DNA of 55,149 bases, taken from Candidatus Zixiibacteriota bacterium (GTDB lineage: Bacteria; Zixibacteria; MSB-5A5; JAABVY01; JAHJOQ01). Of this stretch, positions 16,940 to 34,722 are shown in pieces. A program made the translations under genes and the position numbers. The stretch covers positions 1-55,149 of the forward strand of contig JAHJOQ010000147.1 in the NCBI GenBank assembly GCA_018820315.1, in the 5' to 3' direction. Each line of letters starts with the position of its first letter. Position 1 is the stretch's first letter. The notes under the pieces were generated by a model, which saw nothing but the letters and a program-made list of their open reading frames with translations, did not search any database and was not told the DNA's origin.

Positions 16940-19396
16940 CTATCGAGCCACTGGCTTTTCCGACGGATTCGGGTTGAACGTGAATTTCAACCCGTCAGAC
17001 CCTTCCGGGAAGTCGATAAGGATATCACAGTCGCCTGCATATTGGCCGCGCAGAATCTCCTCGGCCAGCGGATCTTCAAGGAATTTCTGGATAGCGCGGT
17101 TCAGGGGCCTGGCTCCAAAATGCGGATCATAACCCTTGTCGGCAATGTACTCTTTGGCCGCTGGCGAGAGAGTGAAAGATATGCCCTTGTCAGCCAAGCG
17201 CTTACCGACATCCGAAAGCTGGATTTCGATGATCTTCTTTATGTGATCCTTCGTGAGCTGGTGGAACGTAACTGTCTCGTCAATACGGTTTAGGAGTTCC
17301 GGATTGAATATCCTTTTCAACTCCTCGGTGACACGCTTCCGCATTGCCTCGTGATCCGGCCGATCCGCATCACCCGACTTGAAGCCGAGCGTTTTGGAAT
17401 CAAATATCTGCCTAGTGCCGATATTCGATGTCATGATTATAACAGTATTTCTGAAGTCGACCTTCCTGCCGAACGAATCGGTCAGGCTGCCGTCATCCAG
17501 AAGCTGTAGAAGGATATTGAACACATCCTGATGAGCCTTTTCGATTTCGTCGAGCAGCACCACCGAGTAGGGATGGCGGCGGACTTTCTCGGTGAGCTGT
17601 CCACCTTCCTCATATCCGACGTAGCCGGGAGGCGCTCCGACAAGTCTCGACACCGCAAACTTCTCCATGTACTCCGACATATCGATCCGCACGAGAGCGT
17701 TTTCATCCTCAAAGAGGAAACCTGCCAGCACTCTTGCGAGCTCGGTCTTGCCAACTCCTGTCGGCCCGAGGAATATGAATGACCCAATTGGCCGGTTCGG
17801 ATTGCCGAGCCCTGCACGTGCGCGTCTGATAGCTTTCGTGATGGCCGTAATAGCTTCATCCTGGCCGACAATGCTCTTCTGCAGTTCTTCTTCCATTCGG
17901 AGAAGCCGGCGTGATTCCTTCTCTTCAAGACGGAACAATGGGATGCCCGTCATTTGGGAGACGATTGCCGCGACATCCTCGCTGGTGAGTTCGATCTGTT
18001 CTTCTTCGCGGGCGGCGTGCCAGTCCTGCTTCATCTGCTCGAGTTTCTCGCGTTTTGCCTTCAATTCGTCTCGCAGATGAGCGGCGCGTTCGAACTCCTG
18101 ATTCTTGACGGCATCTTCCTTCCGCTTGGAAAGTTCTTCGATTTCATTCTCAAAATCGGTGAACTCCTGCGGTTTGGTGTAAGTCGACAAATGCGCGCGC
18201 GAACCGGCTTCATCGATAATATCGAGGGCCTTATCCGGCTGGAATTTCCCGGTAATATACCTATCCGAGAGCTTCACCGCCGCTTCGATCGCGCTGTCGC
18301 TAATTTCGAGCCTATGATGCTCTTCATATTTCTGTTTGAGACCTTGAAGAATCTTGATCGTATCATCGGTTGATGGTGGCTCGACCATAACAGTCTGGAA
18401 CCTGCGGTCGAGAGCGCCATCTTTCTCGATATATTTTCTGTATTCGTTGAGGGTCGTGGCGCCGATACACTGCAATTCGCCTCTCGACAGAGTAGGCTTG
18501 AAGATGTTCGAAGCATCCAATGATCCCTCGGCACCACCGGCACCGACTATGGTATGCAACTCATCTATGAAGATGATTACATCTTTCGAGCTGATTATCT
18601 CGTTCATGACAGCTTTCAACCGCTCTTCGAACTGGCCTCTGTACTTGGTGCCAGCCACCAGCGAAGCCATATCGAGAGTCACCAGCCTCTTGTTCTCCAA
18701 TGTCTGCGGGACTTTGCCCTGGACGATTCTCTGCGCCAATCCTTCTGCAATAGCTGTCTTGCCCACGCCAGGTTCGCCGATCAGCACCGGGTTATTTTTC
18801 TTGCGACGCGACAATATCTGGCTGACACGCTCGATTTCGTCTTCACGCCCGATAATCGGATCGAGTTTTCCGCGCCGTGCGAGTTCTGTCAGATCGCGGC
18901 CGAAATGATCAAGAGCTGGAGTCTTGCTTTTCTTGCGCTTGCGAGCAAACGACGACGGATTACCGCTGATGATATTCTTCAGCTCGTCATACACCTCCTG
19001 ATAGGAGATGTCGTACATTGTCAACACCTGAGCTGCTACGCCCTCTTCATCCTTGAGCAGGGCGAGGAGGATGTGCTCGGTGTCAATGTCTTTTGATTTC
19101 AACGCGCGCGCTTCCTGTCCAGCGACCTCCAGAGTCTTCTTGGCGCGGGCTGTCAGGGGAAGCTGGCCCATTGTCATCGTGCCGCCAGACGGCTGCACCA
19201 CGTCCTCAATCGACTGCTTTAGGTCAGCCAGATCGAGTCCGATATTGCTGATTATTTCGACGGATCGGCCTTCGCCAAGCCGTATGAGACCGAGAAGAAG
19301 ATGTTCCGTGCCGATGTAGTCGTGGCGAAGTCGAGCAGCTTCATCGCGAGCATACTCGATTGCCTTCCTCGCTAGTTCAGTGAACATCTCATTCAT
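16940..19396 (-). CDS. clpC: AAA+ unfoldase ClpC
   Basis: ClpC unfolds proteins for the ClpP protease. The 818 residues comprise an N-terminal double Clp_N repeat (1-145) and two AAA+ modules (Walker A GEPGVGKTA and GPTGVGKTE). A UVR motif in the middle domain (EEDAVKNQEFERAAHLRDEL-like, near 420-450) marks ClpC rather than ClpB or ClpA. Glu31 and Glu107, both in TEH-L/I-LL contexts, match the phosphoarginine-binding positions known in Bacillus subtilis ClpC. GGGAGG lies 7 nt before the ATG. mcsB ends 25 nt upstream and mcsA precedes it, so the pArg tagging and degradation genes are together. clpP is not in the window. Confidence 0.96.
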   Translation of the reverse strand: MNEMFTELARKAIEYARDEAARLRHDYIGTEHLLLGLIRLGEGRSVEIISNIGLDLADLKQSIEDVVQPSGGTMTMGQLPLTARAKKTLEVAGQEARALKSKDIDTEHILLALLKDEEGVAAQVLTMYDISYQEVYDELKNIISGNPSSFARKRKKSKTPALDHFGRDLTELARRGKLDPIIGREDEIERVSQILSRRKKNNPVLIGEPGVGKTAIAEGLAQRIVQGKVPQTLENKRLVTLDMASLVAGTKYRGQFEERLKAVMNEIISSKDVIIFIDELHTIVGAGGAEGSLDASNIFKPTLSRGELQCIGATTLNEYRKYIEKDGALDRRFQTVMVEPPSTDDTIKILQGLKQKYEEHHRLEISDSAIEAAVKLSDRYITGKFQPDKALDIIDEAGSRAHLSTYTKPQEFTDFENEIEELSKRKEDAVKNQEFERAAHLRDELKAKREKLEQMKQDWHAAREEEQIELTSEDVAAIVSQMTGIPLFRLEEKESRRLLRMEEELQKSIVGQDEAITAITKAIRRARAGLGNPNRPIGSFIFLGPTGVGKTELARVLAGFLFEDENALVRIDMSEYMEKFAVSRLVGAPPGYVGYEEGGQLTEKVRRHPYSVVLLDEIEKAHQDVFNILLQLLDDGSLTDSFGRKVDFRNTVIIMTSNIGTRQIFDSKTLGFKSGDADRPDHEAMRKRVTEELKRIFNPELLNRIDETVTFHQLTKDHIKKIIEIQLSDVGKRLADKGISFTLSPAAKEYIADKGYDPHFGARPLNRAIQKFLEDPLAEEILRGQYAGDCDILIDFPEGSDGLKFTFNPNPSEKPVAR

Positions 19397-19421
19397 GTCA
19401 GACCTCCCTGGTTATCGTCGA

Positions 19422-20471
19422 TCACCGGTCAGCCAGCCGTTCACGGACGAGCTGCGCCCGTCTGCTGTCACGCTCAGATGGTGAAAGTTCTTCATTTAGC
19501 AATTTCTGCAAATGCGCTGGCTGAACCAGAAGCATTATCTCGTTGATCAGCCGGAGCGGGAGCATGTCGAGAATTCCCATTGCAACTCCCATCCTCATCG
19601 CAGAAAGCAGATTCATAGCTTCTCCGGACGACAGCACGCGGGCATGTTTCAGAATACCGTATGCGCGCCATATCTTGTCCTTTATCTCTTCTCCCGCATC
19701 CCTGATCAGAGTCGTGCGGGCATTTTCCTCGTGAGCCATCAATTGTCGAGTCACTTCTTCAAGCGACCCAATTATGTCTTCCTCTTTGCGGCCCAAAGTC
19801 GTCTGGTTCGAGACCTGGAAGATATTCCCCAGGACATCCGACCCTTCGCCATAAAATCCTCTCACTGCCAGACCGACCTTTGTAATCTGAGATAACACGC
19901 CGTCAATCTCATTCGTCAACACAAGCCCTGGCAAGTGTATTAACACTGACGCACGAAGGCCGGTTCCAACATTAGTGGGACAGGATGTCAGGAAACCGTA
20001 GTCGCTGCTGAAATCGTATTCGAGTTTGTTGCCCAGCTCGTGGTCAGTCCTTTCGGCATTATTCATCGCGGTCTGTATTTCGAGACCGGACTGGAAGGAT
20101 TGAATTCGTAGGTGGTCTTCTTCATTAATCATGATGGAGACCGATTCGTCATCTCTGACATACAGCGCGCGGTTCGTACTTGTCCTGAGAAACTCTGGCG
20201 AGATAAGGTGTCTCTCAATAAGGAAATTGCGATCGAGATCGTCAATTGTTTCCGACTCGTACAACTTGCCGATGTCAAGCATGCCTTTCTCTTCGAGGGC
20301 CGAGCGGACATATTCTTTGGCCTTGGCCTGCATTTCATCGGAAGCGCGGTCGGGGTAATGGATATCGGCGACGTTACGCGCCAGCCTGATGCGACTGGAA
20401 AGTACTATTGCGGCGTCTGTACCATCGGCTTGCAGCCATTTCGCAGGTTTATCTACCAGTTCTTCAAACAT
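19422..20471 (-). CDS. mcsB: Protein-arginine kinase McsB
   Basis: McsB phosphorylates arginines on proteins, marking them for ClpCP. The 349 residues show the phosphagen-kinase fold motifs SSRIRLARN, INEEDHLRIQ and the Cys-containing active loop SCPTNVGTGLRASV. The C-terminal RDSRRA (334-339) matches the RDxxRA motif that forms the allosteric pArg site of Bacillus McsB. Creatine/arginine kinases lack that motif, so this is a true McsB. ATG 20471 has AAGAGGA 4 nt upstream and was preferred to 20486. It lies 47 nt after mcsA and 25 nt before clpC. Confidence 0.95.
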   Translation of the reverse strand: MFEELVDKPAKWLQADGTDAAIVLSSRIRLARNVADIHYPDRASDEMQAKAKEYVRSALEEKGMLDIGKLYESETIDDLDRNFLIERHLISPEFLRTSTNRALYVRDDESVSIMINEEDHLRIQSFQSGLEIQTAMNNAERTDHELGNKLEYDFSSDYGFLTSCPTNVGTGLRASVLIHLPGLVLTNEIDGVLSQITKVGLAVRGFYGEGSDVLGNIFQVSNQTTLGRKEEDIIGSLEEVTRQLMAHEENARTTLIRDAGEEIKDKIWRAYGILKHARVLSSGEAMNLLSAMRMGVAMGILDMLPLRLINEIMLLVQPAHLQKLLNEELSPSERDSRRAQLVRERLADR

Positions 20472-20518
20472 AGTTCCTCTTACCAAAATATACCTTGCGT
20501 CAATATAGAGTGCAAGGA

Positions 20519-21022
20519 CTATTGCCCGCTTGAGACAATGCCCTTAATACGATCTCGCAATTCGGCAGCGAGTTCGAAGTTCTCAGACTGCACTGCGTCG
20601 CGCAACTCTTCCTGTAGCTTCCGTCCTTCCTTCAACGGCTTCATCTTGTCCGGTGAACCCCACGGTAGCTTCCCCGAGTGCCGATTGGATCCGTGGATCT
20701 TCCTTAGCAAGTCGTCCAGCGGTGCATGGAATGCACTGTAGCACCCACCACATCCGAAACGACCAGTCTTCGAAAATTCTGAGAATGTCAACCCACATTT
20801 CTGACACTCAAGTTGCTCCTGTCTATCAATACCCGTCGCAAGCGTTTTCTCCACCATGCTCGCCAGAAAGTCACCGAGAGGGAAGGGAGCGTTCTTGAGA
20901 GGATTCTCGAATCCTCTGCGAGACGCACAATTGGCACACAGGTCCAGAACGGACGTGTCGTTTCCCACGATCTGGGTCAGGTGTATTATGGCTTCGTTCT
21001 TCTGACAATCCTGGCACAACAT
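20519..21022 (-). CDS. mcsA: McsA-type zinc protein, activator of McsB
   Basis: This 167-residue protein has four Cys pairs (CQDC at 3-6, CANC, CQKC, CGGC) for two zinc sites. A basic linker and a C-terminal UVR motif (LRDAVQSENFELAAELRDRI) follow. That layout is McsA, which binds and activates McsB and contacts ClpC. It starts with GAGGAG upstream, 11 nt after lolD. In Firmicutes ctsR precedes mcsA; here the preceding genes are lysS and the Lol exporter genes, and no CtsR-like gene is in the window, so heat-shock control must work otherwise. Confidence 0.92.
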   Translation of the reverse strand: MLCQDCQKNEAIIHLTQIVGNDTSVLDLCANCASRRGFENPLKNAPFPLGDFLASMVEKTLATGIDRQEQLECQKCGLTFSEFSKTGRFGCGGCYSAFHAPLDDLLRKIHGSNRHSGKLPWGSPDKMKPLKEGRKLQEELRDAVQSENFELAAELRDRIKGIVSSGQ

Positions 21023-23045: not shown

Positions 23046-24521
23046 CTACTCCGGTTTCAATTGCGGGAAAAGAAGCACCTCACGGATGTTCGTCTGATTG
23101 GTCAGGAGCATTACGACGCGATCAACTCCGAAGCCGAGTCCGCCGGTTGGGGGCATCCCGTGTTCGAGGGCGCGAAGGAAGTCCTCATCCATAACCTGCG
23201 CTTCCTTGTCGCCGAGCTTCGAGAGCTGCTTCTGCATCGCGAAACGCTCTCTCTGATCGAGAGGATCATTTAGTTCAGAGAAAGCATTTGCAACTTCGAT
23301 CTCGCAGATGAACAGCTCAAATCGCTCCGTCAGCCTGGGATCGTCGCGGTGCACTTTCGCAAGTGGCGACATCTCGATCGGGTGATCGGTAATGAACGTG
23401 GGCCGTATCAGATTCGGCTGCACCTTCTCAGTGAAAATGTCATCTATGATCTTGCCGCGTCCTCTCGACTCCTCAACTTCGATGCCTTTTTCTTTGCATG
23501 CTGCTTTCAATTCGGCCTCATCCAGGTTCTCAGCATCGATGCCGGAGTACCTCTTGATTGCTTCGAGCATCGGAAGGCGTTCCCATTCGCAGTCCAGTTC
23601 GATCTCTTCATCCTTGTACGTGATCGTAGTTCTGCCCAGGACTTCGCGTGCGGCGTGAACAAGTAGCTTCTGCATCAATTCCATAATGTCATTATAATCT
23701 ACGTACGCCTGATAGAGCTCGATCATCGTGAATTCGGGATTGTGTGTCCTGTCGAGACCTTCATTTCTGAAATCCTTGCAGACTTCGTACACTTTTTCGA
23801 AGCCACCTATAATCAGTCTCTTGAGATAAAGCTCGTCGGCGATGCGAAGGTAGAGCTCCATGCCGAGACGGTTATGATGGGTTGTGAACGGTTCGGCAGA
23901 TCCACCGCCGTATAGCGGCTGAAGTATCGGGGTTTCGACTTCGACAAACCCATCGTTATCGAGATAATCCCTGATCGACCGTATGATCTTGGCTCGATTC
24001 AGGAATATTTCCTTAACTTCTCTATTAGAGATGAGATCGAGATAGCGCTGCCGGTAGCGCATCTCTACATCCTTGAGCCCGTGCCACTTTTCCGGCAGAG
24101 GCCGGAGGGATTTCGCGAGCATTTCGAAGCTCTCGACCCATATGGACATTTCACCCTTTTTGGTGCGAAAGACTTTTCCCCTGCACCCGATTAGATCGCC
24201 GATATCAATCTGCTTGTAGAGCGCGTAAAGTTCATCGCCGACCACGTCCTTCTTGAAATAGAGCTGTATCTGCCCAAGATCATCCTGGATGTGGCAGAAT
24301 CCCGCTTTGCCCATCACGCGAATTGTCATTACACGACCTGCAAGAGTGATTCGCTCCTCGCTTTGTTCGAGCGATTCGAAATTCTCTTTGACTTGTTCAG
24401 ATCGATGAGACACTTCAAACCTGTACGGAAACGGATTGATTCCCGCTTTGCGCAGTTCTTCCAACTTCTTTATTCGCACGGATCGCTGATCGACCGTCAT
24501 CTCATTCTCATTGCTGGTCAA
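23046..24521 (-). CDS. lysS: Lysyl-tRNA synthetase, class II
   Basis: This 491-residue enzyme charges tRNA-Lys. An OB-fold anticodon-binding domain (about 60-165) precedes the class II catalytic core: motif 1 (FVEVETPILQP), motif 2 (FRNEGLDRTHNPEFTM) and motif 3 (GLGFGVDRVVMLLT near the end). The start is probably TTG 24521 with GGAG 8 nt upstream; ATG 24500 is the alternative. It lies between coaD and the Lol genes in a long minus-strand run. Confidence 0.97.
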   Translation of the reverse strand: MTSNENEMTVDQRSVRIKKLEELRKAGINPFPYRFEVSHRSEQVKENFESLEQSEERITLAGRVMTIRVMGKAGFCHIQDDLGQIQLYFKKDVVGDELYALYKQIDIGDLIGCRGKVFRTKKGEMSIWVESFEMLAKSLRPLPEKWHGLKDVEMRYRQRYLDLISNREVKEIFLNRAKIIRSIRDYLDNDGFVEVETPILQPLYGGGSAEPFTTHHNRLGMELYLRIADELYLKRLIIGGFEKVYEVCKDFRNEGLDRTHNPEFTMIELYQAYVDYNDIMELMQKLLVHAAREVLGRTTITYKDEEIELDCEWERLPMLEAIKRYSGIDAENLDEAELKAACKEKGIEVEESRGRGKIIDDIFTEKVQPNLIRPTFITDHPIEMSPLAKVHRDDPRLTERFELFICEIEVANAFSELNDPLDQRERFAMQKQLSKLGDKEAQVMDEDFLRALEHGMPPTGGLGFGVDRVVMLLTNQTNIREVLLFPQLKPE

Positions 24522-24548
24522 TTCTCACTCCAGATTGATAGGTTCATC

Positions 24549-25037
24549 CTATGTGACATTGGGAAACTTCTTCCTGAGCGCGTCTTCAACGGCCGCAGGT
24601 ACAAACGCCGATATGTCGCCACCGTTCTTCGCAACTTCCTTGATGAGGGAAGAGGATATATAGACATAACTCAAGGATGGCATCAAGAAGACTGTTTCCG
24701 CTCTGTTGGCAAGTTCTCGGTTCATTAGTGCGAGCTGGAATTCGTACTCAAAATCCGATACCGCTCTCAGGCCTCGAATAATCGCGACAGCTTCGGATTC
24801 TTCGACGAATTTCGCAAGCAGTCCCGAGAAAGGGACTACATTGACATTTTGCATTGATGAGATCGCGCCTCTAACCAGCTCGACACGCTCCTCCAGATCG
24901 AACAGATACGGTTTCATGCCATTGGCTACAACCGCCACTATGATTTTGTCGAACATGCCTGAGGCGCGGCTCACTAAATCGAGGTGGCCATTTGTCACTG
25001 GATCAAAACTGCCGGGATATATTGCGGTTCTCATCAC
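24549..25037 (-). CDS. coaD: Phosphopantetheine adenylyltransferase
   Basis: CoaD makes dephospho-CoA from 4'-phosphopantetheine and ATP, the next-to-last step of CoA synthesis. The 162 residues contain the nucleotidyltransferase signature GSFDPVTNGH, the RGLRAVSDFEYEF helix and the ISSSLIKEVA motif, at typical length. The start overlaps the rsmD stop: either GTG 25037 or ATG 25034. rsmD-coaD is a common bacterial gene pair. Confidence 0.96.
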   Translation of the reverse strand: MMRTAIYPGSFDPVTNGHLDLVSRASGMFDKIIVAVVANGMKPYLFDLEERVELVRGAISSMQNVNVVPFSGLLAKFVEESEAVAIIRGLRAVSDFEYEFQLALMNRELANRAETVFLMPSLSYVYISSSLIKEVAKNGGDISAFVPAAVEDALRKKFPNVT

Positions 25038-25582
25038 TTCTTCCTCAGTATTAATACTTCACTTTGTCCGAATTTCTTCTCTCTCAGAAGTGTATAGGTC
25101 TTCTGGTTGAAGCTGATTTTGGTCTTACCTGAATGCTCGACGACCAGCAGGCATCCGCTCCTGACGAGGTTCTGCTTCGCAATCATGTCGAGCAGTTTCG
25201 AAGAGAGAGGAGTCCCGTAGGGTGGATCGGCAAGCAGTATAGTTACAGTATCCAGACCTTTTAGATTGGCCAATTCATCCGGCAGCTTCAGCCGCACAAT
25301 ATCGGCACGGTCGAGCAGGTCGAGTGTCTGCAGGTTCTCCTTCACGACCTTCAGTGCGTCACGAGAGAGGTCGACGAAAAAGCACTTTTTCGCGCCGCGA
25401 GAAAGCGCTTCCAGTCCGAGATTGCCAGACCCACAGAACACGTCAGCTACGATAGCATTGTCGATTTCCGGTGCTATCATGTTGAATATGCTCTCTTTGA
25501 CTTGCTCAAGTGTCGGCCTCACTTCGAGTCCCTTAAGAGTCTTAAGCTTGAACCCCTTCTTCTCACCGGCGACTATTCTCAT
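25034..25582 (-). CDS. rsmD: 16S rRNA (guanine966-N2)-methyltransferase RsmD
   Basis: This 182-residue SAM-dependent methyltransferase has the N-terminal MRIVAGEKKG, the R-P-T-x-x-x-V-K-E-S-I-F-N signature, the SAM loop DVFCGSGNLG and the catalytic DPPYG. It methylates G966 of 16S rRNA. It starts 1 nt after the upstream PilM-like gene with GGAG 11 nt before, and its stop overlaps coaD. Confidence 0.95.
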   Translation of the reverse strand: MRIVAGEKKGFKLKTLKGLEVRPTLEQVKESIFNMIAPEIDNAIVADVFCGSGNLGLEALSRGAKKCFFVDLSRDALKVVKENLQTLDLLDRADIVRLKLPDELANLKGLDTVTILLADPPYGTPLSSKLLDMIAKQNLVRSGCLLVVEHSGKTKISFNQKTYTLLREKKFGQSEVLILRKK

Positions 25583-25583
25583 G

Positions 25584-26465
25584 TTAAATTACTCCAAGCG
25601 CCGCCAAAGGCAGAAGAAATCGTTCGGGCTTGTCTATCGTTCCATGAAGGATCTTCGAGATGTGATCAGGATTAAATCCTCTGAAATTGAGTCTCGACGA
25701 GAGTTCCGAAGCCAGCTCATCTTCATCAGCTCCGTTGATCACAACTCTGTCTATTCTCGCGCGTGATCCGGAAGTATGCCACGACAGAAGAGTCTCGATC
25801 GTTTCGGCGAATCTCTCCATTTTGCCGTCGGTCGGCAAATGTGCCGGCAGCAGGTCGGTCACATGGCGCTGGGACGTTCTGACAAGATACGCGCATTTGC
25901 TGCCGATGAACACACATTCGGCAGCTTCAGCATCCTCTCTGGCGCAATAGCTGGAAACGACATCTCCCCACACAGACTGTGGGAAAAACATCTGATCAAT
26001 AAGCAGGCCAATCGATTTGGCCTGATCAGTCAGGTGGTTCACATTTCGCTTTCGAGCCGCCCTTACCCTGCGAATCTGGTACTTGCCACAAATGGAGTCC
26101 ATTAAGTGTATGCTTTCATAGAGATAATCTTCGTGTCGACCAATAAGATGTGTCGCGATCTCCCAGCGCTCCCACTCATCCCGGCGGATTGTCAGCCCCT
26201 TCGGAATCTGAATCGTGAATTCGATTACATACTCCGCCGGAAGAACTACTGACGCCGGAATCAAGCCGTCACTCGAAGGAACGACTTGCGATATGGATTG
26301 CAGCGCGCTGCCGAAGTCTCCTGACCTGACTGTTTCAGGAACACTGATATCGAACTCATCAGCGCGAAGAAGCATGCAACTGCTATGTGATACTTCGAGC
26401 AGCACAGTCCTGATGGCATCCTGTGCCAGTTCGATGCCGAGTCGATATTTGAACGGCGTAATCAT
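25584..26465 (-). CDS. PilM-like actin-fold protein
   Basis: This 293-residue protein begins YRLGIELAQDAIRTVLLE, like the phosphate-1 loop of actin-fold type IV pilus proteins (PilM). A SVVLPAEYVIEFTIQIPKG strand pair and a WEIATHLI segment resemble the PilM helix that begins WEAEQYIP. It ends with an LPLAALGVI helix as PilM does. PilM usually heads pilMNOPQ, the inner-membrane platform of type IV pili and type II secretion. Here no pilN, pilO or pilQ follows; the next gene is rsmD. It overlaps the ComEA-like gene by 4 nt (ATGA). It could be a diverged or stand-alone paralogue. Moderately sure of the fold, not of the role. Confidence 0.6.
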   Translation of the reverse strand: MITPFKYRLGIELAQDAIRTVLLEVSHSSCMLLRADEFDISVPETVRSGDFGSALQSISQVVPSSDGLIPASVVLPAEYVIEFTIQIPKGLTIRRDEWERWEIATHLIGRHEDYLYESIHLMDSICGKYQIRRVRAARKRNVNHLTDQAKSIGLLIDQMFFPQSVWGDVVSSYCAREDAEAAECVFIGSKCAYLVRTSQRHVTDLLPAHLPTDGKMERFAETIETLLSWHTSGSRARIDRVVINGADEDELASELSSRLNFRGFNPDHISKILHGTIDKPERFLLPLAALGVI

Positions 26466-26881
26466 TTTTCACCGATTTCTATCATGCCCCGGACTGCTGT
26501 CAGTTTCGAGGGGCCTATGCCCTTGACTCGCACGAGATCATCGACACTCTCGAAACGACCTTGTACCTTTCTTGATTCGATTATTTTCGTAGCGAGATAA
26601 TTCCCGATGCCGGGGAGCAGCACCAGAGAATCGATTGGTGCCGTGTTGATGTTGATCCGGTACTTGTGAAGCATTCCCTTAGTGAGTAGTCCTGCTCTTA
26701 CTTCGCTTCCGTCAGTTGTCGCGCGATCCTGCTCCAGTTGACTTATAATAACCTCGGGGTAGATCACTTCTCCTGACTTCTGATAGATTACGATGGCTCC
26801 GCCCACAAGGAAAACAGTCGTCAGAAACAACACTACCCTGATGTCCGATTTAGAGAACAGTTCAGGGCGCCTGTCGTTCAT
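26462..26881 (-). CDS. ComEA-like helix-hairpin-helix DNA-binding protein
   Basis: This 139-residue protein has one N-terminal membrane helix (about 15-33). A short linker and a C-terminal double helix-hairpin-helix domain follow (ININTAPIDSLVLLPGIG, then VDDLVRVKGIGPSKL). That is the ComEA layout: a membrane-anchored receptor that binds incoming DNA in natural transformation. GAGG lies 6 nt upstream. It is coupled to the PilM-like gene, which fits a DNA uptake or pilus link, but comEC is absent here. A general role cannot be excluded, because short HhH proteins are common. Confidence 0.8.
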   Translation of the reverse strand: MNDRRPELFSKSDIRVVLFLTTVFLVGGAIVIYQKSGEVIYPEVIISQLEQDRATTDGSEVRAGLLTKGMLHKYRININTAPIDSLVLLPGIGNYLATKIIESRKVQGRFESVDDLVRVKGIGPSKLTAVRGMIEIGEK

Positions 26882-26916: not shown

Positions 26917-27837
26917 TCAGCGGCTGAGTAGGGCAAGTAAAACTTTGCCAACAGCGGCAAGGCTCGATGGACTGCATTTGTCGGGAGTATCGGCTTGAGT
27001 GTGCCAGGAAGGATAGTCGAAATCGATTATGTCGATTACAGGGATACCTTTTTCCAGAAAGGGGAGGTGATCGTCATAGACGGTGTGTTTGATGGAATCG
27101 ACAAAATGCGAAGCGCCCTGTTCTGCAGCTTCGCTCCAGACCTGGTCGACGATGCGCTTGGCGTACATATGAGAATATCGTTCACGGTAGATCCTCATAT
27201 CGGTTGCGCCGACCATATCCAGCAGAATTCCGAACGCGTAATGTCCCTGATCGATATTTTCAACGTAGTATTTAGAGCCGATGCAGTAGTAGTCCAGATT
27301 GCCCGACTCACCGTAATCTTCAGCATCGAAAAGCACGATGTCGACTCCATAGGGGCAGTCGATATGAGGCAGTAGATTTGCGAGCTCCATAAGTACGGCG
27401 CAGCCTGAAGCGCCATCATTGGCACCGAGAATCGGCTGATTCTGCAGTGCTACGTTCGGGTCCATGTCGGCATATGGCCTCGTATCCCAGTGGGCGCACA
27501 GGAGCACTCGCGGCAGACGACCCGGATTGAATCTGGCAATGATGTTGGTCAGATCGGAAAAAGTCGTATCGCTGATGGTGTCGGTGAACTCAAAATTCTG
27601 CAGTTCGACCGTATCGAGCCTTGTCTCGAAGAATGCCTTGAAGTACTCGAGTGCCTTTGATGCACCATCCGAGCCCGGATTCCTCGGTCCGAAGTCACAT
27701 TGCTCAGTGAGATAGACATAGGCGCGGTCACCGTCAAAAGTCACTTTGCCAGATCCGCAACCCGGTAAAGACATGACTGTGAAGAGAATCAACAGAACAG
27801 CAGCGACGAGCAGATTTGACCTTGAAGCATAGTTCAT
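26917..27837 (-). CDS. M28-fold glutaminyl cyclase (glutaminyl-peptide cyclotransferase) lipoprotein
   Basis: This 306-residue protein has a lipoprotein signal peptide (lipobox SLPGC, Cys27). The body matches bacterial M28-fold glutaminyl cyclases: AHWDTRPYAD (His116), GANDGASG (Asp141, zinc), FDAEDYG (Glu173 as general base, Asp174 as zinc ligand), ILLDMVG (Asp207), DDHLPF (Asp256 region) and WHT (Trp278-His279, zinc). The Trp-His pair and the Asp in DDH are features of cyclases rather than of two-zinc aminopeptidases. Such enzymes turn N-terminal Gln of exported proteins into pyroglutamate. The ATG overlaps the sprA stop by one base. An aminopeptidase remains possible. Confidence 0.82.
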   Translation of the reverse strand: MNYASRSNLLVAAVLLILFTVMSLPGCGSGKVTFDGDRAYVYLTEQCDFGPRNPGSDGASKALEYFKAFFETRLDTVELQNFEFTDTISDTTFSDLTNIIARFNPGRLPRVLLCAHWDTRPYADMDPNVALQNQPILGANDGASGCAVLMELANLLPHIDCPYGVDIVLFDAEDYGESGNLDYYCIGSKYYVENIDQGHYAFGILLDMVGATDMRIYRERYSHMYAKRIVDQVWSEAAEQGASHFVDSIKHTVYDDHLPFLEKGIPVIDIIDFDYPSWHTQADTPDKCSPSSLAAVGKVLLALLSR

Positions 27838-30800
27838 CAGAATCTGATTTCAACCCATATTCCGAGTTGGCGTACATGCGATTTGCGGCGAGACCTCTTA
27901 TCCTCGGTGTCGGACCAGCGCATCTGGAGTCCGCCTTGAATATTGCTCGAGAAGCTGTAAGTTGCTCTCGGCGCGACTGTGAAATCGGTGCGTTCGTTCC
28001 CGGGGCTCACATTACCCTTGGTGTCTTCCTGCTCAGATTTAGTAGTCCGCTGGGAGATGTCAATGGTAAGAGACATCGTGCTCTGAATCTTCAGTCGACC
28101 TAAAAGTGGAATCTTAAACCCCGTCGGCGCTCTGAAACTGTACCTGTTGGAAAGCGTAATGCTCTTGGACCAGTTGCGCTGCTCGCGCGATACACCCTGC
28201 GTGATCGTCTTGTTGATCGATTGGGAAACCTCATATCGGCCTTGAGTTTGAACCGACTTCAGCCACGTCACATTGAATCCGAGCAGAGGACCGAAATTGT
28301 GCGTTATGTTCTCTTTTTCTTTATCACCGCTGTTCTTATTGATGCTCTCATCGAGCTTCTTGGAGTAGCTGCTGTTGACCGCGAAAGACTTGAATAGCCA
28401 ACCGATGATGCGAAAACGCTCCAGTCGCCCTATGTTGACGCTGAGGTCCGGAAATGAAGTCGAGATTGTCTCAAGATCATTCGCGCGTGACGTCTGAGTT
28501 CTCTTGGAATAACCGGAACTGATCTTGGAACCAAGTATGAAATCGATACCGCTCTTGGCGGAATATGTTTCGGATTTCGAGTCAGTGAAGCGACTAACGC
28601 TGCTTCCAGATGATTGGATGATCTCAACTCCAGGATCCTTGGTGAAGCCGAACTGGAACTTCAATGACGGACGATCTACCAGTCCTGAGCTCGAGAAGCG
28701 ATTGTCCTGACTGTAACTGAGAGTGACGGGGTCGATTCTGTTGGAGATAGGTCGAATGATTAAGAGGAACGGCTTGAACAGAACGAAGTCCCCGCCTTTT
28801 CCGGAGCCTCCTTTACCTTTCGAACCCGCGCCGAAGAACCTCTGAGAGTCGAACTTGCTTGACAAGGTCCAGTTCGAACTGGTCGATGCGAGTCTTGAAC
28901 CATCTTTGTAACGCTTAGGATCGGAGTTCTCATCATAAGAAGACTTGTAACTCAGCTTGGTCGACAAGAAATTGAATATCTTTGGTTCGTAACTTCCAGT
29001 GAAGGACTGGCGGCGCACCAACTCGACGCCGAGTTTGAATTCCTTCGGATTGAAAGAGAACTTAAGGGTCTCGGGATCCCTCAGGTCTCTGTCTGTCGAG
29101 AAATTGAAGCTCAGCGGCAGAGATCCGAAGAGATTATATTGCGCTGAACCCGATCCCGTGAATCGTCGATCATATGTCGAGAATATCCGGCCTTCATTGT
29201 TAACGCTCAGAGTCTGCTTCCGCGAGACATCACCTTTGAAGCTGAGCCTGCTCGGGGAATATCCCAGCGCCGTATTTGTGATGGCAGATGGGAAGAACGG
29301 AATGAATGAAGTCCAGCCGAATATCCGTATCGTCTTGTTGCCCGGGTTCAGAGAATAGTCGGCGTGAGCGGCATAATTCTCGCTTTCACTTTTCGGCTGT
29401 GTGGGAGATTGTGCATTAGAAGAGGAATATGAAAAGCTCGTGTTGATCTTGTTGAGAGTGAGGTTCCAGAGCCAATTGTTCGTCTTCTTTGCAAATTTCG
29501 ATGATATCCGGAAGTTGTTTGAATAGTTGCGAGAAGTCTCTGCTTCACGATCTTTCTCGGTTATGACGATGTCGGAGCCTGACTTCAATCTCGGGACTCT
29601 TACGCTCTTGCTCCACGAGTAGGATATGGGTATCCTTGCACCCCACTGCGGGGGAAGGAACTTGTCGAAGTTGAAGCTCGTGGAAATTGACAGGGATGTT
29701 TCTTCACTCCCCGCTCCCAGATTGTTCCTGTCCGCTGCCGTAAGCTGCCTGAAGAAAGCGTCTTTCTTCCTGTAGTTCATGGAGAATGATCCAATATCAG
29801 CGATACTTGTTGTGACGCTGATTCGTTTCGCGACTCCCTTGTCGCGCCTGACGTCAGTGACGCGCAATTCATCCAGCCAAATTTCACCCGATTCCGGATC
29901 GGGCGGAGCGTCGGCGGACCTCTGCACGCCCGCCGCAAGATAGATAATGTTCGTGAGCCGAGGGTTGCCTTTCACCCCGTAGCGGCCGACTGACAGGTAA
30001 TTCGTATCTGCAATTTCCTGTCTTAACTTGAGCAGGCTGTCTTTGACCTGTGTTATTGCATCGAAGTCGATGTCGACCCAGTTGCGCTGATCCCAGTAAT
30101 TCTTGCCGAGCGATGTGCTGTCCGTGCCGTAGATTCGCGTGTGGAATTCATAGAAATTCTGAGAATCGGTACCCATGCGGAAGATGAATTCAATCGATGA
30201 ATCGGCAGTAGTCGCGCTATGGACATACATCTGAAGTCGCCTGTAGCCGGCGTAGTTCTCTCCCCGGAACAATATGCGTTCGGCGATTCCTCTGGTACCG
30301 GGGTCAAAATTGAAGAACCTCAACCACAGCGACTGCTCTTTCTCGCGTGTCTCGTTGACTTTGTCGTAGTATCCCTCCACATCAGGAGGAGGAGTGTAAA
30401 CTGTGTCCGCAAATTCTTCTGTGTTGATGACAGAGACGTCGAACCTTGTCTCCTCATCTTCAGATGCACCCGCAGACATCGATGCCTGAGGAAGGGGAGT
30501 CTCGAGAGGCTGAACGAGCCATCTTGTGGACACAAGATCCATTGAAGCAAACTCGAGCGAATCTCTGTGAGAGAATCCGGTGAGTATGATACGCGCGAAG
30601 GACACTTGGTCCAGTGTGGCCTCGCCGGCTGAATCGTCAGGCTCATCGAGTGGGATCCTGTATGTTACCCAGCCTCGTTCATTCTGCGAATTCTCAACGA
30701 GATACTTGGTGTCGTTGGCGAAGTCCAGGACGTATTCATAGTAGTTGTTGCGAGTGTTGAGTGACTTATCTCGATTGATGTCCTCAGAGTCAGGATAATA

Positions 30801-33728
30801 GCCACGAGCCGGATCGCTGGCATTATTCTGAGTTCCGTTTATTCCCTCGTAGTTGTCCTTATCGTCATCCGAATAGAACCAGTTGTCCAGGGACGGATCG
30901 GCTGCCGTGCTTCCCAGGCTGTCCCTCTCCTGGGCATCCGTCCAGCCGTCAAGTCCAACATCCTCTTCATCTTCGAGTATGTCATTGAAGTTCTTGTCCT
31001 CCGTGTCCCACTTCCTGTTCCCGTTGATGTCTTCCGTGATCTCACCGAGATAGATTCGCAGTTGTCCATGCGTAGGATCGACGAACGGGCGGCGCATGCG
31101 GATTTCCAGAAACTGCGTTCTGCTCTGATCCCATGATCCCCGCCCCAAAGGTCTCATGATACCTGCCCACGACTCCTCAAGCGCTGTAGAGTCGGGATCA
31201 ATGCGGACTATCATAGTATTCGTGCGGTTGTCTCGATCCTGTACGTCACGATTCCAAATATCGGTAACGGGTGTCTCGGACCAGGGATTATACCAAATCA
31301 ATCTGGAACGAGGATTGATAGAATCATTTGTGAAGAAGCTGGGGTTCACAGTCGAAGTGTAGCCGCTGCCATCAAGCGGGGGAGAGGCCGTAGTCCACGC
31401 ATGCCGCAGGACACTGAGGCCATAAGCCTCCCGGGCACCCTCGAAGTCATCAATAAATGCTTCACCGAGCGTGTTGGGGTTCGGCACACTCTGCGCGATC
31501 TCTCCGGAGATAGTCATGCGGGAATCTGTCGTCGCTTCAAGCAGCGGTAACATGTCAAACATGTCGGTCAGAATCGGCAGCTCAAAACTCGTTTGGAAAT
31601 CGCTGTCCCATACAAGGTACTTCGACTCCTCCTGCCCGACTCTCGGTTTCCTGTCTGTCGATTTCTCGCTCTTGTAAAGGATCGTTGTTCCGAACTTGAA
31701 ATCCTTAGAGAGCACGTACTCGAGTCTTGCTCCGAACAATGATTTCTTTTCCGCAGCGATGAATGGCTGATACTCAAAGTCGACAGTGACATTGGCATTC
31801 GGATCCAGTACCTCTTCGCTTCGGAATATTATGCGCCCAAGATCGTAGTATATTGTGTAGTCGGTATCCTTCGTGAGTCGCCGTCCGTTGAGAGTGACGA
31901 CCTCCGAACCCTCGATGATATTGATCTTGCCGAGCGAAAACTCGGTCTGTCGCTCCGCGAGGCTCACTGCAATGTAATACTTCGAAGCTTCGCGAATGTC
32001 CTGGGAATTGACAGAATTGTATATTTCAGGGACTACCTCGTTGAGAGAATCGGGGTTGTTAAACGGTTCTCGATTCGGGAAGAAGAGAAATCCTCTTTCC
32101 AAAAACACCGTTTGATCCGTGATGTCAAGCTTTCCGTCGGGGTTCGGATTGCCATTGAGGTCCTGCTGATCAAGGCCCATGAGCTGGAGGTATGGCGTTC
32201 CGTCCTGGTGATCCAGGTTTGCGTCTTCACGCGTTTCCTCTCCCTGTTTGCCCTTGTATATCTTGATCTCTAATCCGTCGGGGTCGATGTTGCGAGCACC
32301 GAGAGAATAGACTCGTTTCCATTCATAGTGGAACGTTGGTACGTCGGGCGGAGCGCTGGCTCTTTTGATGAGCTTGAGATGAAGCGTGTCTGGATTCGAC
32401 AGGCTGCCGACCTCATACCTTGAGCCACCACGCTCGACAGTCATCCAGCAAGCGAGATCCTGCTGAACGCCCACGTAGGTAAGCATCTCCAGATACAGTT
32501 CGTTTTCATAGAAGAAGTATTTGTTTCGGTCAATCTCCAGCCAGTCGGTCTCATAGATTTCTGAGGAATATTGGGTCGTGTCGCGGGGATCGATATATGC
32601 AAACCCATGAATCTTCTGTACCTCGAGATCCGTTCTTGTCTCGTTTATGTAAAGCCTGAAATCTACGATCTTGTCGACACCGCGAAAGAGATCGTAGTCT
32701 GTATCGCCGACATCGGCCGGTCCGCCGATTCTTCCGAGATCAAAGAAAGTATTCGTCAGGTAGTCATAGTCTCGAATATATTTGACACTCCTCTGCGCAC
32801 CTGCGGTGAAACTTGATTTTTCGGTGTTCCCCTTCTCCTGTGACGTGATTACCGTCATGCCGAGGTTGCCAAGCTGCGCGGTTGCTTTGATACCAAATAG
32901 TCCCTGCACTCTCGAAGAGTACCCAACGAACTGCGTATTCGGCAATGCGAGGTTTGTGTTTCCCGCCTCGATAGTCTGCAGAATCTCATCCTCGGTCCCC
33001 TGGTATCTGATCTGAATGCGATTATCGAGATCCGTCTGCCTTTTCGAGTCCTGGTCAACTTTGACCTCGATCTTTGAACCGATATTGCCCGTGATCTTGA
33101 ACTGCGAGACCTGCTCCATGTTCAGGGAGGGGAATTTGCTCTGCTTGAATGCTGCGACCTGTGTTTTGTCATCCCATTGGCTTCGGCCATCAAAGCTGAC
33201 CCTATAATATCCGTTGACTCGAAGACCGACACCACCTTCGCCGATCAGTGCCTCGACTGCTCTGGGTACGTGAATGGGGATGCTGAAAGTGAGCAGGCCC
33301 TGAGCTTTGTCCGCCTGATCTTTCGCTATCGATCTCATCAGGCCTATTTTCCAGTAGTCGCTCGCATTAGTCTCGTTTCTCTGGCGGTTGAACTCGCGTG
33401 GCTCCACAGAGGTCGGATAGTGGATAGCGATAGGCGCGAATGTTGGGTGAAAGGAATATGTCCTGGTGAAAGTGAACATCAGAGTGCCCGGCTCAATTCT
33501 GGTCTTGTCGACTGGTCTGACTTTGCCGGCGTCAAGCCAGGAGTATTTCTTGATAGCGATCGACATACCCGACCAATGCGCGGGAGCCGGGATAGGAACA
33601 TTTCGAAGTGATTTGGTATCCAGGGGAATAGACAGCCATTGCCCAACAGCGGAACTGCCCGCCGAGATCATCGACAGGAGCAAGACAAGACATAAAAGCC
33701 TGATGTTCAAAGCGGGTCTTAATCGCAA
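27837..33728 (-). CDS. sprA: Giant outer-membrane protein of the SprA family (type IX-type translocon)
   Basis: SprA is the giant barrel through which Bacteroidota type IX secretion moves proteins across the outer membrane. This 1963-residue homologue has a signal peptide (AVG|Q30) and many paired-strand blocks. It shows the family landmark NTLGEAFIDDFEGARE, an acidic Asp/Asn-rich insert near 900-985 (DINGNRKWDTEDKN), long Ser/Lys/Asn-rich barrel strands in the C-terminal half, and a terminal Phe. It is somewhat shorter than typical Bacteroidota SprA (over 2200 residues). The start is TTG 33728: an in-frame stop lies directly before it and a GAGG is 10 nt upstream. murB precedes it and the glutaminyl cyclase follows by overlap. 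Confidence 0.88.
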   Translation of the reverse strand: MRLRPALNIRLLCLVLLLSMISAGSSAVGQWLSIPLDTKSLRNVPIPAPAHWSGMSIAIKKYSWLDAGKVRPVDKTRIEPGTLMFTFTRTYSFHPTFAPIAIHYPTSVEPREFNRQRNETNASDYWKIGLMRSIAKDQADKAQGLLTFSIPIHVPRAVEALIGEGGVGLRVNGYYRVSFDGRSQWDDKTQVAAFKQSKFPSLNMEQVSQFKITGNIGSKIEVKVDQDSKRQTDLDNRIQIRYQGTEDEILQTIEAGNTNLALPNTQFVGYSSRVQGLFGIKATAQLGNLGMTVITSQEKGNTEKSSFTAGAQRSVKYIRDYDYLTNTFFDLGRIGGPADVGDTDYDLFRGVDKIVDFRLYINETRTDLEVQKIHGFAYIDPRDTTQYSSEIYETDWLEIDRNKYFFYENELYLEMLTYVGVQQDLACWMTVERGGSRYEVGSLSNPDTLHLKLIKRASAPPDVPTFHYEWKRVYSLGARNIDPDGLEIKIYKGKQGEETREDANLDHQDGTPYLQLMGLDQQDLNGNPNPDGKLDITDQTVFLERGFLFFPNREPFNNPDSLNEVVPEIYNSVNSQDIREASKYYIAVSLAERQTEFSLGKINIIEGSEVVTLNGRRLTKDTDYTIYYDLGRIIFRSEEVLDPNANVTVDFEYQPFIAAEKKSLFGARLEYVLSKDFKFGTTILYKSEKSTDRKPRVGQEESKYLVWDSDFQTSFELPILTDMFDMLPLLEATTDSRMTISGEIAQSVPNPNTLGEAFIDDFEGAREAYGLSVLRHAWTTASPPLDGSGYTSTVNPSFFTNDSINPRSRLIWYNPWSETPVTDIWNRDVQDRDNRTNTMIVRIDPDSTALEESWAGIMRPLGRGSWDQSRTQFLEIRMRRPFVDPTHGQLRIYLGEITEDINGNRKWDTEDKNFNDILEDEEDVGLDGWTDAQERDSLGSTAADPSLDNWFYSDDDKDNYEGINGTQNNASDPARGYYPDSEDINRDKSLNTRNNYYEYVLDFANDTKYLVENSQNERGWVTYRIPLDEPDDSAGEATLDQVSFARIILTGFSHRDSLEFASMDLVSTRWLVQPLETPLPQASMSAGASEDEETRFDVSVINTEEFADTVYTPPPDVEGYYDKVNETREKEQSLWLRFFNFDPGTRGIAERILFRGENYAGYRRLQMYVHSATTADSSIEFIFRMGTDSQNFYEFHTRIYGTDSTSLGKNYWDQRNWVDIDFDAITQVKDSLLKLRQEIADTNYLSVGRYGVKGNPRLTNIIYLAAGVQRSADAPPDPESGEIWLDELRVTDVRRDKGVAKRISVTTSIADIGSFSMNYRKKDAFFRQLTAADRNNLGAGSEETSLSISTSFNFDKFLPPQWGARIPISYSWSKSVRVPRLKSGSDIVITEKDREAETSRNYSNNFRISSKFAKKTNNWLWNLTLNKINTSFSYSSSNAQSPTQPKSESENYAAHADYSLNPGNKTIRIFGWTSFIPFFPSAITNTALGYSPSRLSFKGDVSRKQTLSVNNEGRIFSTYDRRFTGSGSAQYNLFGSLPLSFNFSTDRDLRDPETLKFSFNPKEFKLGVELVRRQSFTGSYEPKIFNFLSTKLSYKSSYDENSDPKRYKDGSRLASTSSNWTLSSKFDSQRFFGAGSKGKGGSGKGGDFVLFKPFLLIIRPISNRIDPVTLSYSQDNRFSSSGLVDRPSLKFQFGFTKDPGVEIIQSSGSSVSRFTDSKSETYSAKSGIDFILGSKISSGYSKRTQTSRANDLETISTSFPDLSVNIGRLERFRIIGWLFKSFAVNSSYSKKLDESINKNSGDKEKENITHNFGPLLGFNVTWLKSVQTQGRYEVSQSINKTITQGVSREQRNWSKSITLSNRYSFRAPTGFKIPLLGRLKIQSTMSLTIDISQRTTKSEQEDTKGNVSPGNERTDFTVAPRATYSFSSNIQGGLQMRWSDTEDKRSRRKSHVRQLGIWVEIRF

Positions 33729-33783: not shown

Positions 33784-34722
33784 TTAGCTGAAGTTGCCAA
33801 GATATGTAATTTCTTCTTCAAGAGTATAACCAAATTTGTCTTTGACTCTCTTTTTCAACACAGCAGCAAGCTCTCTAACATCTTCGGCTCTGGCGCCTCC
33901 GAGATTCACCAGAATATTGGCATGATGTTGGTAAACTCCGGCCTTGCCCACGCATGCACTCTTTGCGCCAACTTTTTCCAGGAGCATGCCTGCGGAGAGT
34001 TTGCCGTGCATCTCATCCGGCTTTTCGATATTTTTGAAGAAACACCCCGCCGAACAATCAGTCTCAGGGTGCCTTTCCGCCCGCAGATTCAGGATCTCTC
34101 GTTTCCTTTCGGTCAGACGTTCGGTCGAGTCTGCCGGTAGCTCGAAGTTTGCTTCCAGTACGATCTCATGAGATCGTTTCAATATACTGTTCCTGTATGA
34201 GAATTCAAAATACTTTTTCGGCTCTGTGCGCGGCTTCTGACCCGGTGTCACTATAGTCGCCGATACCAAATGGTCAGAAATTGAGCCGCCGTATGCACCC
34301 GCATTGCCATAGATCGCTCCACCAACAGAGCCTTTGATCCCGGCCAATGACTCCATGCCGCCCAGACCAAGTGCGCAGACCTTGTCAATCATACTCTCCA
34401 GTCCGTGTCCGCTTCCGACAGTCAGGCTTCCTCCTGAATTTTCGAAATGCTCGATCTGAGTTTTGAGTACGATGCCGCGATAGCCGCTGTCTGACACGAG
34501 CAGATTCGATCCACCGCCCAGGATGAAATATTCGGCTCCATGCTGCTCGCAGAGCCTGAGCGCATCGACCATATCTTCAACAAGTGTTATTGTGACGAGC
34601 ATATCCGCGGGGCCGCCTATGCCGAATGTGGTGTGTTTCGACAACGGCTCGTCTTCAGAAGCGGCTGCTCCGAAACGTGCCTTCAGGCTGCTGTGGAGCG
34701 TCTCTGCAAGCCTATCAAGCAT
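33784..34722 (-). CDS. murB: UDP-N-acetylenolpyruvoylglucosamine reductase
   Basis: MurB reduces enolpyruvyl-UDP-GlcNAc to UDP-MurNAc for peptidoglycan. The 312 residues show the FAD-binding region (TTFGIGGPAD, LGGGSNLLV, GIKGSVGGAIYGNAGAYG), the catalytic Arg in SYRNS, and SAGCFFKN, where Cys takes the place of the classic catalytic Ser, as in some other bacterial MurB enzymes. This is the shorter type II form. No mur cluster surrounds it; it sits between the DUF1844 gene and sprA. Only a weak AGAGA precedes the start. Confidence 0.95.
   Translation of the reverse strand: MLDRLAETLHSSLKARFGAAASEDEPLSKHTTFGIGGPADMLVTITLVEDMVDALRLCEQHGAEYFILGGGSNLLVSDSGYRGIVLKTQIEHFENSGGSLTVGSGHGLESMIDKVCALGLGGMESLAGIKGSVGGAIYGNAGAYGGSISDHLVSATIVTPGQKPRTEPKKYFEFSYRNSILKRSHEIVLEANFELPADSTERLTERKREILNLRAERHPETDCSAGCFFKNIEKPDEMHGKLSAGMLLEKVGAKSACVGKAGVYQHHANILVNLGGARAEDVRELAAVLKKRVKDKFGYTLEEEITYLGNFS

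Follow-up and report, generated by a model that had tools for sequence, protein, structure and literature searches.

In a stretch of DNA from a Candidatus Zixiibacteriota bacterium (contig JAHJOQ010000147.1 of assembly GCA_018820315.1; 55,149 nt, here called the window, with all positions given on the forward strand), the gene for a giant outer-membrane translocon of the SprA family runs directly into the gene for an M28-fold lipoprotein. The question raised by this locus is whether the two genes are functionally coupled, i.e., whether a pore of the type IX secretion system (T9SS) and an enzyme that caps N-terminal glutamine belong together, or whether they are neighbors through inherited gene order. 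Both T9SS and the Q-rule (exposure of an N-terminal Gln by the majority of signal peptidase I substrates) have hitherto been described as features of Bacteroidota, in which the average Q-value is 71% (PMC5837995). Their phylogenetic coincidence was noted in the same study, with no mechanistic link found (PMC5837995), and their co-occurrence has stayed unexplained.

The sprA-QC junction

On the minus strand, sprA (27837..33728; Sov/SprA, 1963 aa, with a TTG start that has GAGGT ahead of it) ends in a TGA stop codon at 27839-27837, and the gene for the M28-fold protein (26917..27837; 306 aa), assigned below to the type II glutaminyl cyclases (QC), starts with an ATG at 27837-27835. Base 27837 is shared by the two codons, in a TGATG sequence at 27835..27839, and the one-base overlap described in the original prediction is thus exact. 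The overlap had also been read as a sign of translational coupling. By itself, a one-base overlap is ordinary, as 15 of 203 co-directional neighbor pairs (~7%) in approx. 690 kb of the window's genome could have one (a 4-base overlap was feasible in 25). On the other hand, no Shine-Dalgarno-like sequence precedes the QC ATG (best match 3 of 5). Such sequences are in use in this genome (5/5 matches upstream of 30% of starts vs. 8% of shuffles), and their absence here would be compatible with, rather than proof of, re-initiation coupling after the sprA stop.

SprA and other T9SS components

The assignment of the giant gene to the SprA family proved genuine: its product gave a full-length match to the equivalog model TIGR04189 at 712.6 bits (cut-off 200), along with a match to SprA_N (PF14349) at 145.9 bits. 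Profile searches of the same genome yielded 45 T9SS sorting-tail matches, 15 PorV-family matches and a PorU match at 643.7 bits, so that CTD sorting tails, PorV and the PorU sortase, the combination by which a T9SS is recognized, occur together in one genome. The window's SprA is in these respects (full-length TIGR04189 match, PorV, PorU and sorting-tail proteins) like the T9SS translocon SprA/Sov. Searches for the GldL/GldM motor gave zero matches in the window's genome and likewise zero in every control genome.

Two further observations concern these components. At G000:C59:58799-65251, the 3 kb after a PorU sortase gene contain a PorV-type domain, which is part of an open frame of 1058 residues; as this pair recurs throughout the phylum, the PorV may be a fused or extended form. 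SprA proteins of approx. 2040-2075 aa are also encoded beside QC in Gemmatimonadales (L065, L067, L070, L076), a group for which a T9SS-type translocon is seldom mentioned in the literature examined.

Identity of the M28-fold protein

Pfam gave Peptidase_M28 as the sole name for the 306 aa protein, and its best matches in the PDB were all bacterial glutaminyl cyclases (PgQC, 6qql, and TfQC, 6qro; E about 1e-49), as compared to 7e-7 for aminopeptidases. The protein and its relatives (32 proteins of the phylum) were aligned to PgQC and TfQC and read against diagnostic criteria from PMC7948796. The zinc ligands D141, D174 and H279 correspond to PgQC Asp149, Asp183 and His299, and the catalytic E173 corresponds to Glu182; these residues are present in 32/32 proteins of the phylum. 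Also kept are the equivalents of HsD248 and HsD305, a Gly that follows the bridging Asp and a Trp that precedes the zinc His, and each QC-diagnostic position is retained in 31-32 of the 32 proteins. An Asp occupies the position where human QC has Glu as the third zinc ligand, which is the form found in bacterial QCs. The marks of two-zinc M28 aminopeptidases (Asn/Asp following the bridging Asp, and a Tyr in front of the last His) were absent in this alignment.

The AlphaFold model of the protein (pLDDT 94.6; 41 sequences) pointed in the same direction. The top Foldseek matches were the QCs of B. thetaiotaomicron, T. forsythia and P. gingivalis (TM up to 0.86/0.91), with the S. griseus aminopeptidase far behind (TM 0.67/0.75). 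As AlphaFold places no zinc, assignment to the single-zinc type rests on residues and fold. A lipobox, LPG↓C27 (27757..27768, minus strand), predicts a lipoprotein. Overall, the protein is almost certainly a bacterial type II glutaminyl cyclase by family, fold and residues, with the corresponding activity presumed. The original prediction of a QC-type lipoprotein with a single-zinc signature, as opposed to a two-zinc aminopeptidase, thus agrees with both the residues and the structure model.

The window's QC resembles the Bacteroidota type II QCs (PgQC, TfQC, BtQC) in fold, zinc ligands, catalytic residues, predicted lipoprotein nature, presence of a T9SS in the genome and Gln enrichment (see below). 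It differs from them in that W193, W200 and H205 of the bacteroidal subgroup are replaced by Tyr, Tyr and Asp, which places it as a sister of this subgroup rather than a member. Like the QCs of Fimbriiglobus ruber (7d1b) and Acidobacteriales (7d18), it represents the type II family outside Bacteroidota. Some relatives, in genomes G010 (L027) and G025 (L110) and in Neomarinimicrobiota (L071:9902-10855), apparently have, in place of a lipobox, a type I signal peptide with A↓Q or G↓Q at its end; these QCs could therefore be soluble and cap themselves.

Conservation of the sprA-QC pair

What exceeds chance at this locus is the conserved adjacency of sprA and QC, not their overlap. In a survey of the phylum (two genome samples, all from one class), QC was the immediate 3' neighbor of sprA, with both genes on one strand, in 60 of the 68 QC-bearing genomes; the genes were truly apart in G009, G036 and G081, and the remaining exceptions were contig breaks or incomplete. 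The one-base overlap recurs in distant members of the phylum, with gaps of up to ~110 bases in others. Named genomes were searched with a DNA pattern of QC alone, so that sprA was not part of the query, and all six QC loci in Latescibacterota, Gemmatimonadales and Neomarinimicrobiota had sprA immediately upstream. The pair is thus kept both in relatives, where its absence would have counted against the original prediction, and in three other non-Bacteroidota phyla. In contrast to the window, the QC loci of Chloroflexi, Planctomycetes and Verrucomicrobia found by the QC pattern had no sprA alongside, and two of these genomes (Chloroflexi) had no sprA anywhere in the genome.

The two genes also appear to be inherited together. 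In a mirror-tree comparison, SprA and QC distances were correlated with r = 0.746, above all 2000 permutations (maximum 0.29), and 19 of 29 splits were shared. QC was cleanly absent with sprA retained in G006, G007 and G020, where a comEA-like gene directly follows sprA; no QC remnants were found downstream of sprA in QC-lacking genomes.

The Bacteroidota examples considered are arranged differently. PgQC (PG_2157) heads the genes PG_2157-2159 (PMC10653852) and, unlike the window's QC, is not beside sov. A single annotated sprA locus of Bacteroidota was considered, that of Parabacteroides; there, sprA is flanked by ruvA and by a gene for a TonB-dependent receptor, neighbors that the window's sprA does not share, and QC is not adjacent. 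The window's SprA groups apart from Bacteroidota, and its QC is nearer to those of Latescibacterota and Neomarinimicrobiota than to the QCs known from Bacteroidota; from these two results we infer that the pair-bearing phylum of the window lies outside Bacteroidota. In a literature search that covered sources other than subscription journals, no publication joining SprA and glutaminyl cyclase in the context of T9SS was found, in agreement with the earlier statement that the pair is not known as a described operon. Enzyme and pore are thus of known kinds, and their conserved pairing outside Bacteroidota is, as far as we could see, undescribed.

Glutamine after signal peptides

As a measure of Gln exposure, [AGS]Q was counted right after N-terminal hydrophobic cores, with Prevotella as positive and E. 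coli as negative control; two purpose-made signal-peptide predictors, which had low recall or precision and gave few calls in the Prevotella control, served as a guide only. [AGS]Q was enriched 2.7x in the window's genome (27 observed vs. 10.2 expected; P about 1e-5), as compared to 3.4x and 3.0x in two other QC-positive samples, 4x in a small set from other phyla, 4.8x in Prevotella and 1.3x in E. coli. By a crude predictor with false positives, the share of open reading frames (ORFs) with an N-terminal hydrophobic core that carry an [AGS]Q site was 28% in G000, as against 48% for Prevotella and 20% for E. coli, so that the majority that defines the Q-rule is not reached in G000. Gln enrichment therefore extends beyond Bacteroidota in a form milder than the Bacteroidota Q-rule.

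The expectation that this enrichment would vanish along with QC was rejected. The QC-lacking genomes G006 and G020 showed enrichments of 4.2x and 2.7x, respectively, and Gln did not drop in these two sampled genomes (40% vs. 31% of ORFs; p = 0.10); a simple model in which QC presence sets Gln use thus fails in this small sample. Genome G006 (L137-L156, L097) has its high enrichment with neither QC type encoded, perhaps as a result of recent QC loss, a cyclase of another kind or spontaneous cyclization.

The other QC type, plant-type QC (PF05096), has the same presumed reaction and an unrelated fold, and almost no genome of the phylum encodes it. A strong match (E 9e-92, at G019:C14:608-1333, L217) was found in only 1 of 58 genomes, and plant-type QC was thus rejected as a general stand-in. 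The genome concerned, G019, lacks the sprA-linked (animal-type) QC, and here plant-type QC looks like a non-orthologous replacement. Together, the natural QC losses (G006, G020) and this replacement make it possible to test which exported proteins depend on capping.

Explanations for the linkage

We favor, with a probability of roughly 0.6, the reading that the locus is an ancestral sprA-QC pair of the T9SS-bearing FCB phyla other than Bacteroidota, in which capping capacity tracks the amount of translocon. Cleavage by signal peptidase I would expose an N-terminal Gln on part of the exportome, probably including the window's SprA, and the lipoprotein QC, presumably anchored on the periplasmic side of the membrane, would convert this Gln to pyroglutamate. 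Pyroglutamate would in turn block aminopeptidases and thereby protect exported proteins, a protection that has been shown in P. gingivalis (PMC10653852). If QC is co-transcribed with sprA, and in the window probably translated by re-initiation on the sprA message, co-production would keep capping capacity in step with the quantity of T9SS translocon, which may be the advantage of the arrangement. The capping step, which is likely, draws on known biology and the measured Gln enrichment; the tie of QC synthesis to the pore through a shared operon and translational coupling is what we infer from the arrangement, and functional coupling of SprA and QC is plausible.

This reading is supported by the residues and fold of QC, the conserved pairing, the co-inheritance, the T9SS components, the Gln enrichment, the plant-type QC of G019 and the lack of a Shine-Dalgarno-like sequence before the QC ATG. 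It is weakened by the three genomes that lost QC, the three in which the pair is apart, the undiminished Gln enrichment in the two QC-lacking genomes sampled, the frequency of one-base overlaps and the absence of a +1 Gln from about half of the SprA proteins. The pair occurs in four or more phyla that appear to lie outside Bacteroidota, and this provides a physical basis for the coincidence of T9SS and the Q-rule. This distribution suggests that the association of T9SS and capping predates Bacteroidota, and a tie between the export of proteins and the capping of their N-termini may go back to the early history of this bacterial branch.

The surroundings of the pair offer another explanation. 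All on the minus strand, murB (33784..34722) lies 55 bases upstream of sprA, which it adjoins in most loci of the phylum, and a gene for a ComEA-like helix-hairpin-helix protein (26462..26881) lies 35 bases downstream of QC, a place that a comEA-like gene takes in Latescibacterota and Gemmatimonadales too. The co-directional block continues (23046..26465) with genes for an uncharacterized 293 aa protein, an rsmD-like methyltransferase, a coaD-like protein and lysS. Among 45 loci examined, murB was near sprA in 35, mostly directly upstream, and the comEA-like gene in 22; linkage of murB to sprA within the phylum is about equal to that of sprA to QC. The sprA-QC-comEA order is older than the window's phylum, Latescibacterota and Gemmatimonadales. 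The ComEA-like protein has an N-terminal membrane segment, and we know of no functional link between it and sprA or QC.

As murB-sprA is about equally conserved within the phylum and QC has a comEA-like gene behind it even in other phyla, the linkage could be a matter of inherited gene order, i.e., an old block (murB-sprA-QC-comEA-...-rsmD-coaD-lysS) may have been held together by shared promoters while QC acts on all exported proteins, with nothing special about SprA. We regard this as a serious possibility, though short of an even chance. Neither murB nor the comEA-like gene, which recur near sprA across phyla, has an obvious T9SS role, QC has been lost elsewhere with the rest of the block intact, and Gln enrichment does not track QC; moreover, Bochtler et al. 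found no role for pyroglutamate in T9SS sorting and, from P. gingivalis, argued against N-terminal Gln or pyroglutamate as a signal for it (PMC5837995). However, all six Latescibacterota, Gemmatimonadales and Neomarinimicrobiota loci have kept sprA-QC with no murB near sprA, which leaves sprA-QC as the sole pair common to all pair-bearing phyla. The QC loci that lack sprA, furthermore, sit in other phyla, two of them in genomes without any sprA.

The original prediction went further than the ancestral pair that we favor and proposed an export-maturation unit. A stronger version of this would be a real ancestral unit of the non-Bacteroidota FCB phyla, unlinked later in Bacteroidota, with QC synthesis set by sprA translation and with pyroglutamate formation needed specifically for building the T9SS or for the passage of its cargo in these phyla. 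Adjacency across phyla bears out the physical side of the proposal; since the pair sits inside the wider conserved block, however, its retention need not mean a dedicated unit, and we consider the stronger version unlikely.

The same prediction named SprA itself as a QC substrate. In the window, this is plausible: the SprA signal peptide (33639..33728, minus strand) ends, with cleavage placed by eye, at ...SSAVG↓Q30WLS (Gln codon 33641-33639; alternative SSA↓V), and Gln is also at the inferred +1 position in G002, G005, G009, G014, G022 and G039, in Latescibacterota and in Gemmatimonadales. About half of the SprA proteins encoded beside QC, however, have another residue at this position, and those of the QC-lacking G006, G007 and G032 retain Gln. 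SprA is thus a possible substrate, and its N-terminal Gln, as it is not conserved, was rejected as the reason for the linkage; that QC chiefly serves the SprA/PorV translocon and that this Gln keeps the genes together is accordingly very unlikely. The idea that the M28 protein trims exported proteins as a two-zinc aminopeptidase is hardly credible, as the bare Pfam name and the close PDB relatives originally labeled aminopeptidases (4fuu, 3tc8) stand against E173-D174, D141-G142 and W278-H279, where aminopeptidases have the second-zinc site, Asn/Asp after the bridging Asp and Tyr, and against a sequence and fold much nearer to QCs.

Elsewhere in the window (16940-21022), genes for a UVR-motif protein, a McsB-like ATP:guanido phosphotransferase and a ClpC-like AAA protein occur in a row; this is a McsA-McsB-ClpC-like arginine phosphorylation/proteolysis cluster in a Gram-negative-type genome.
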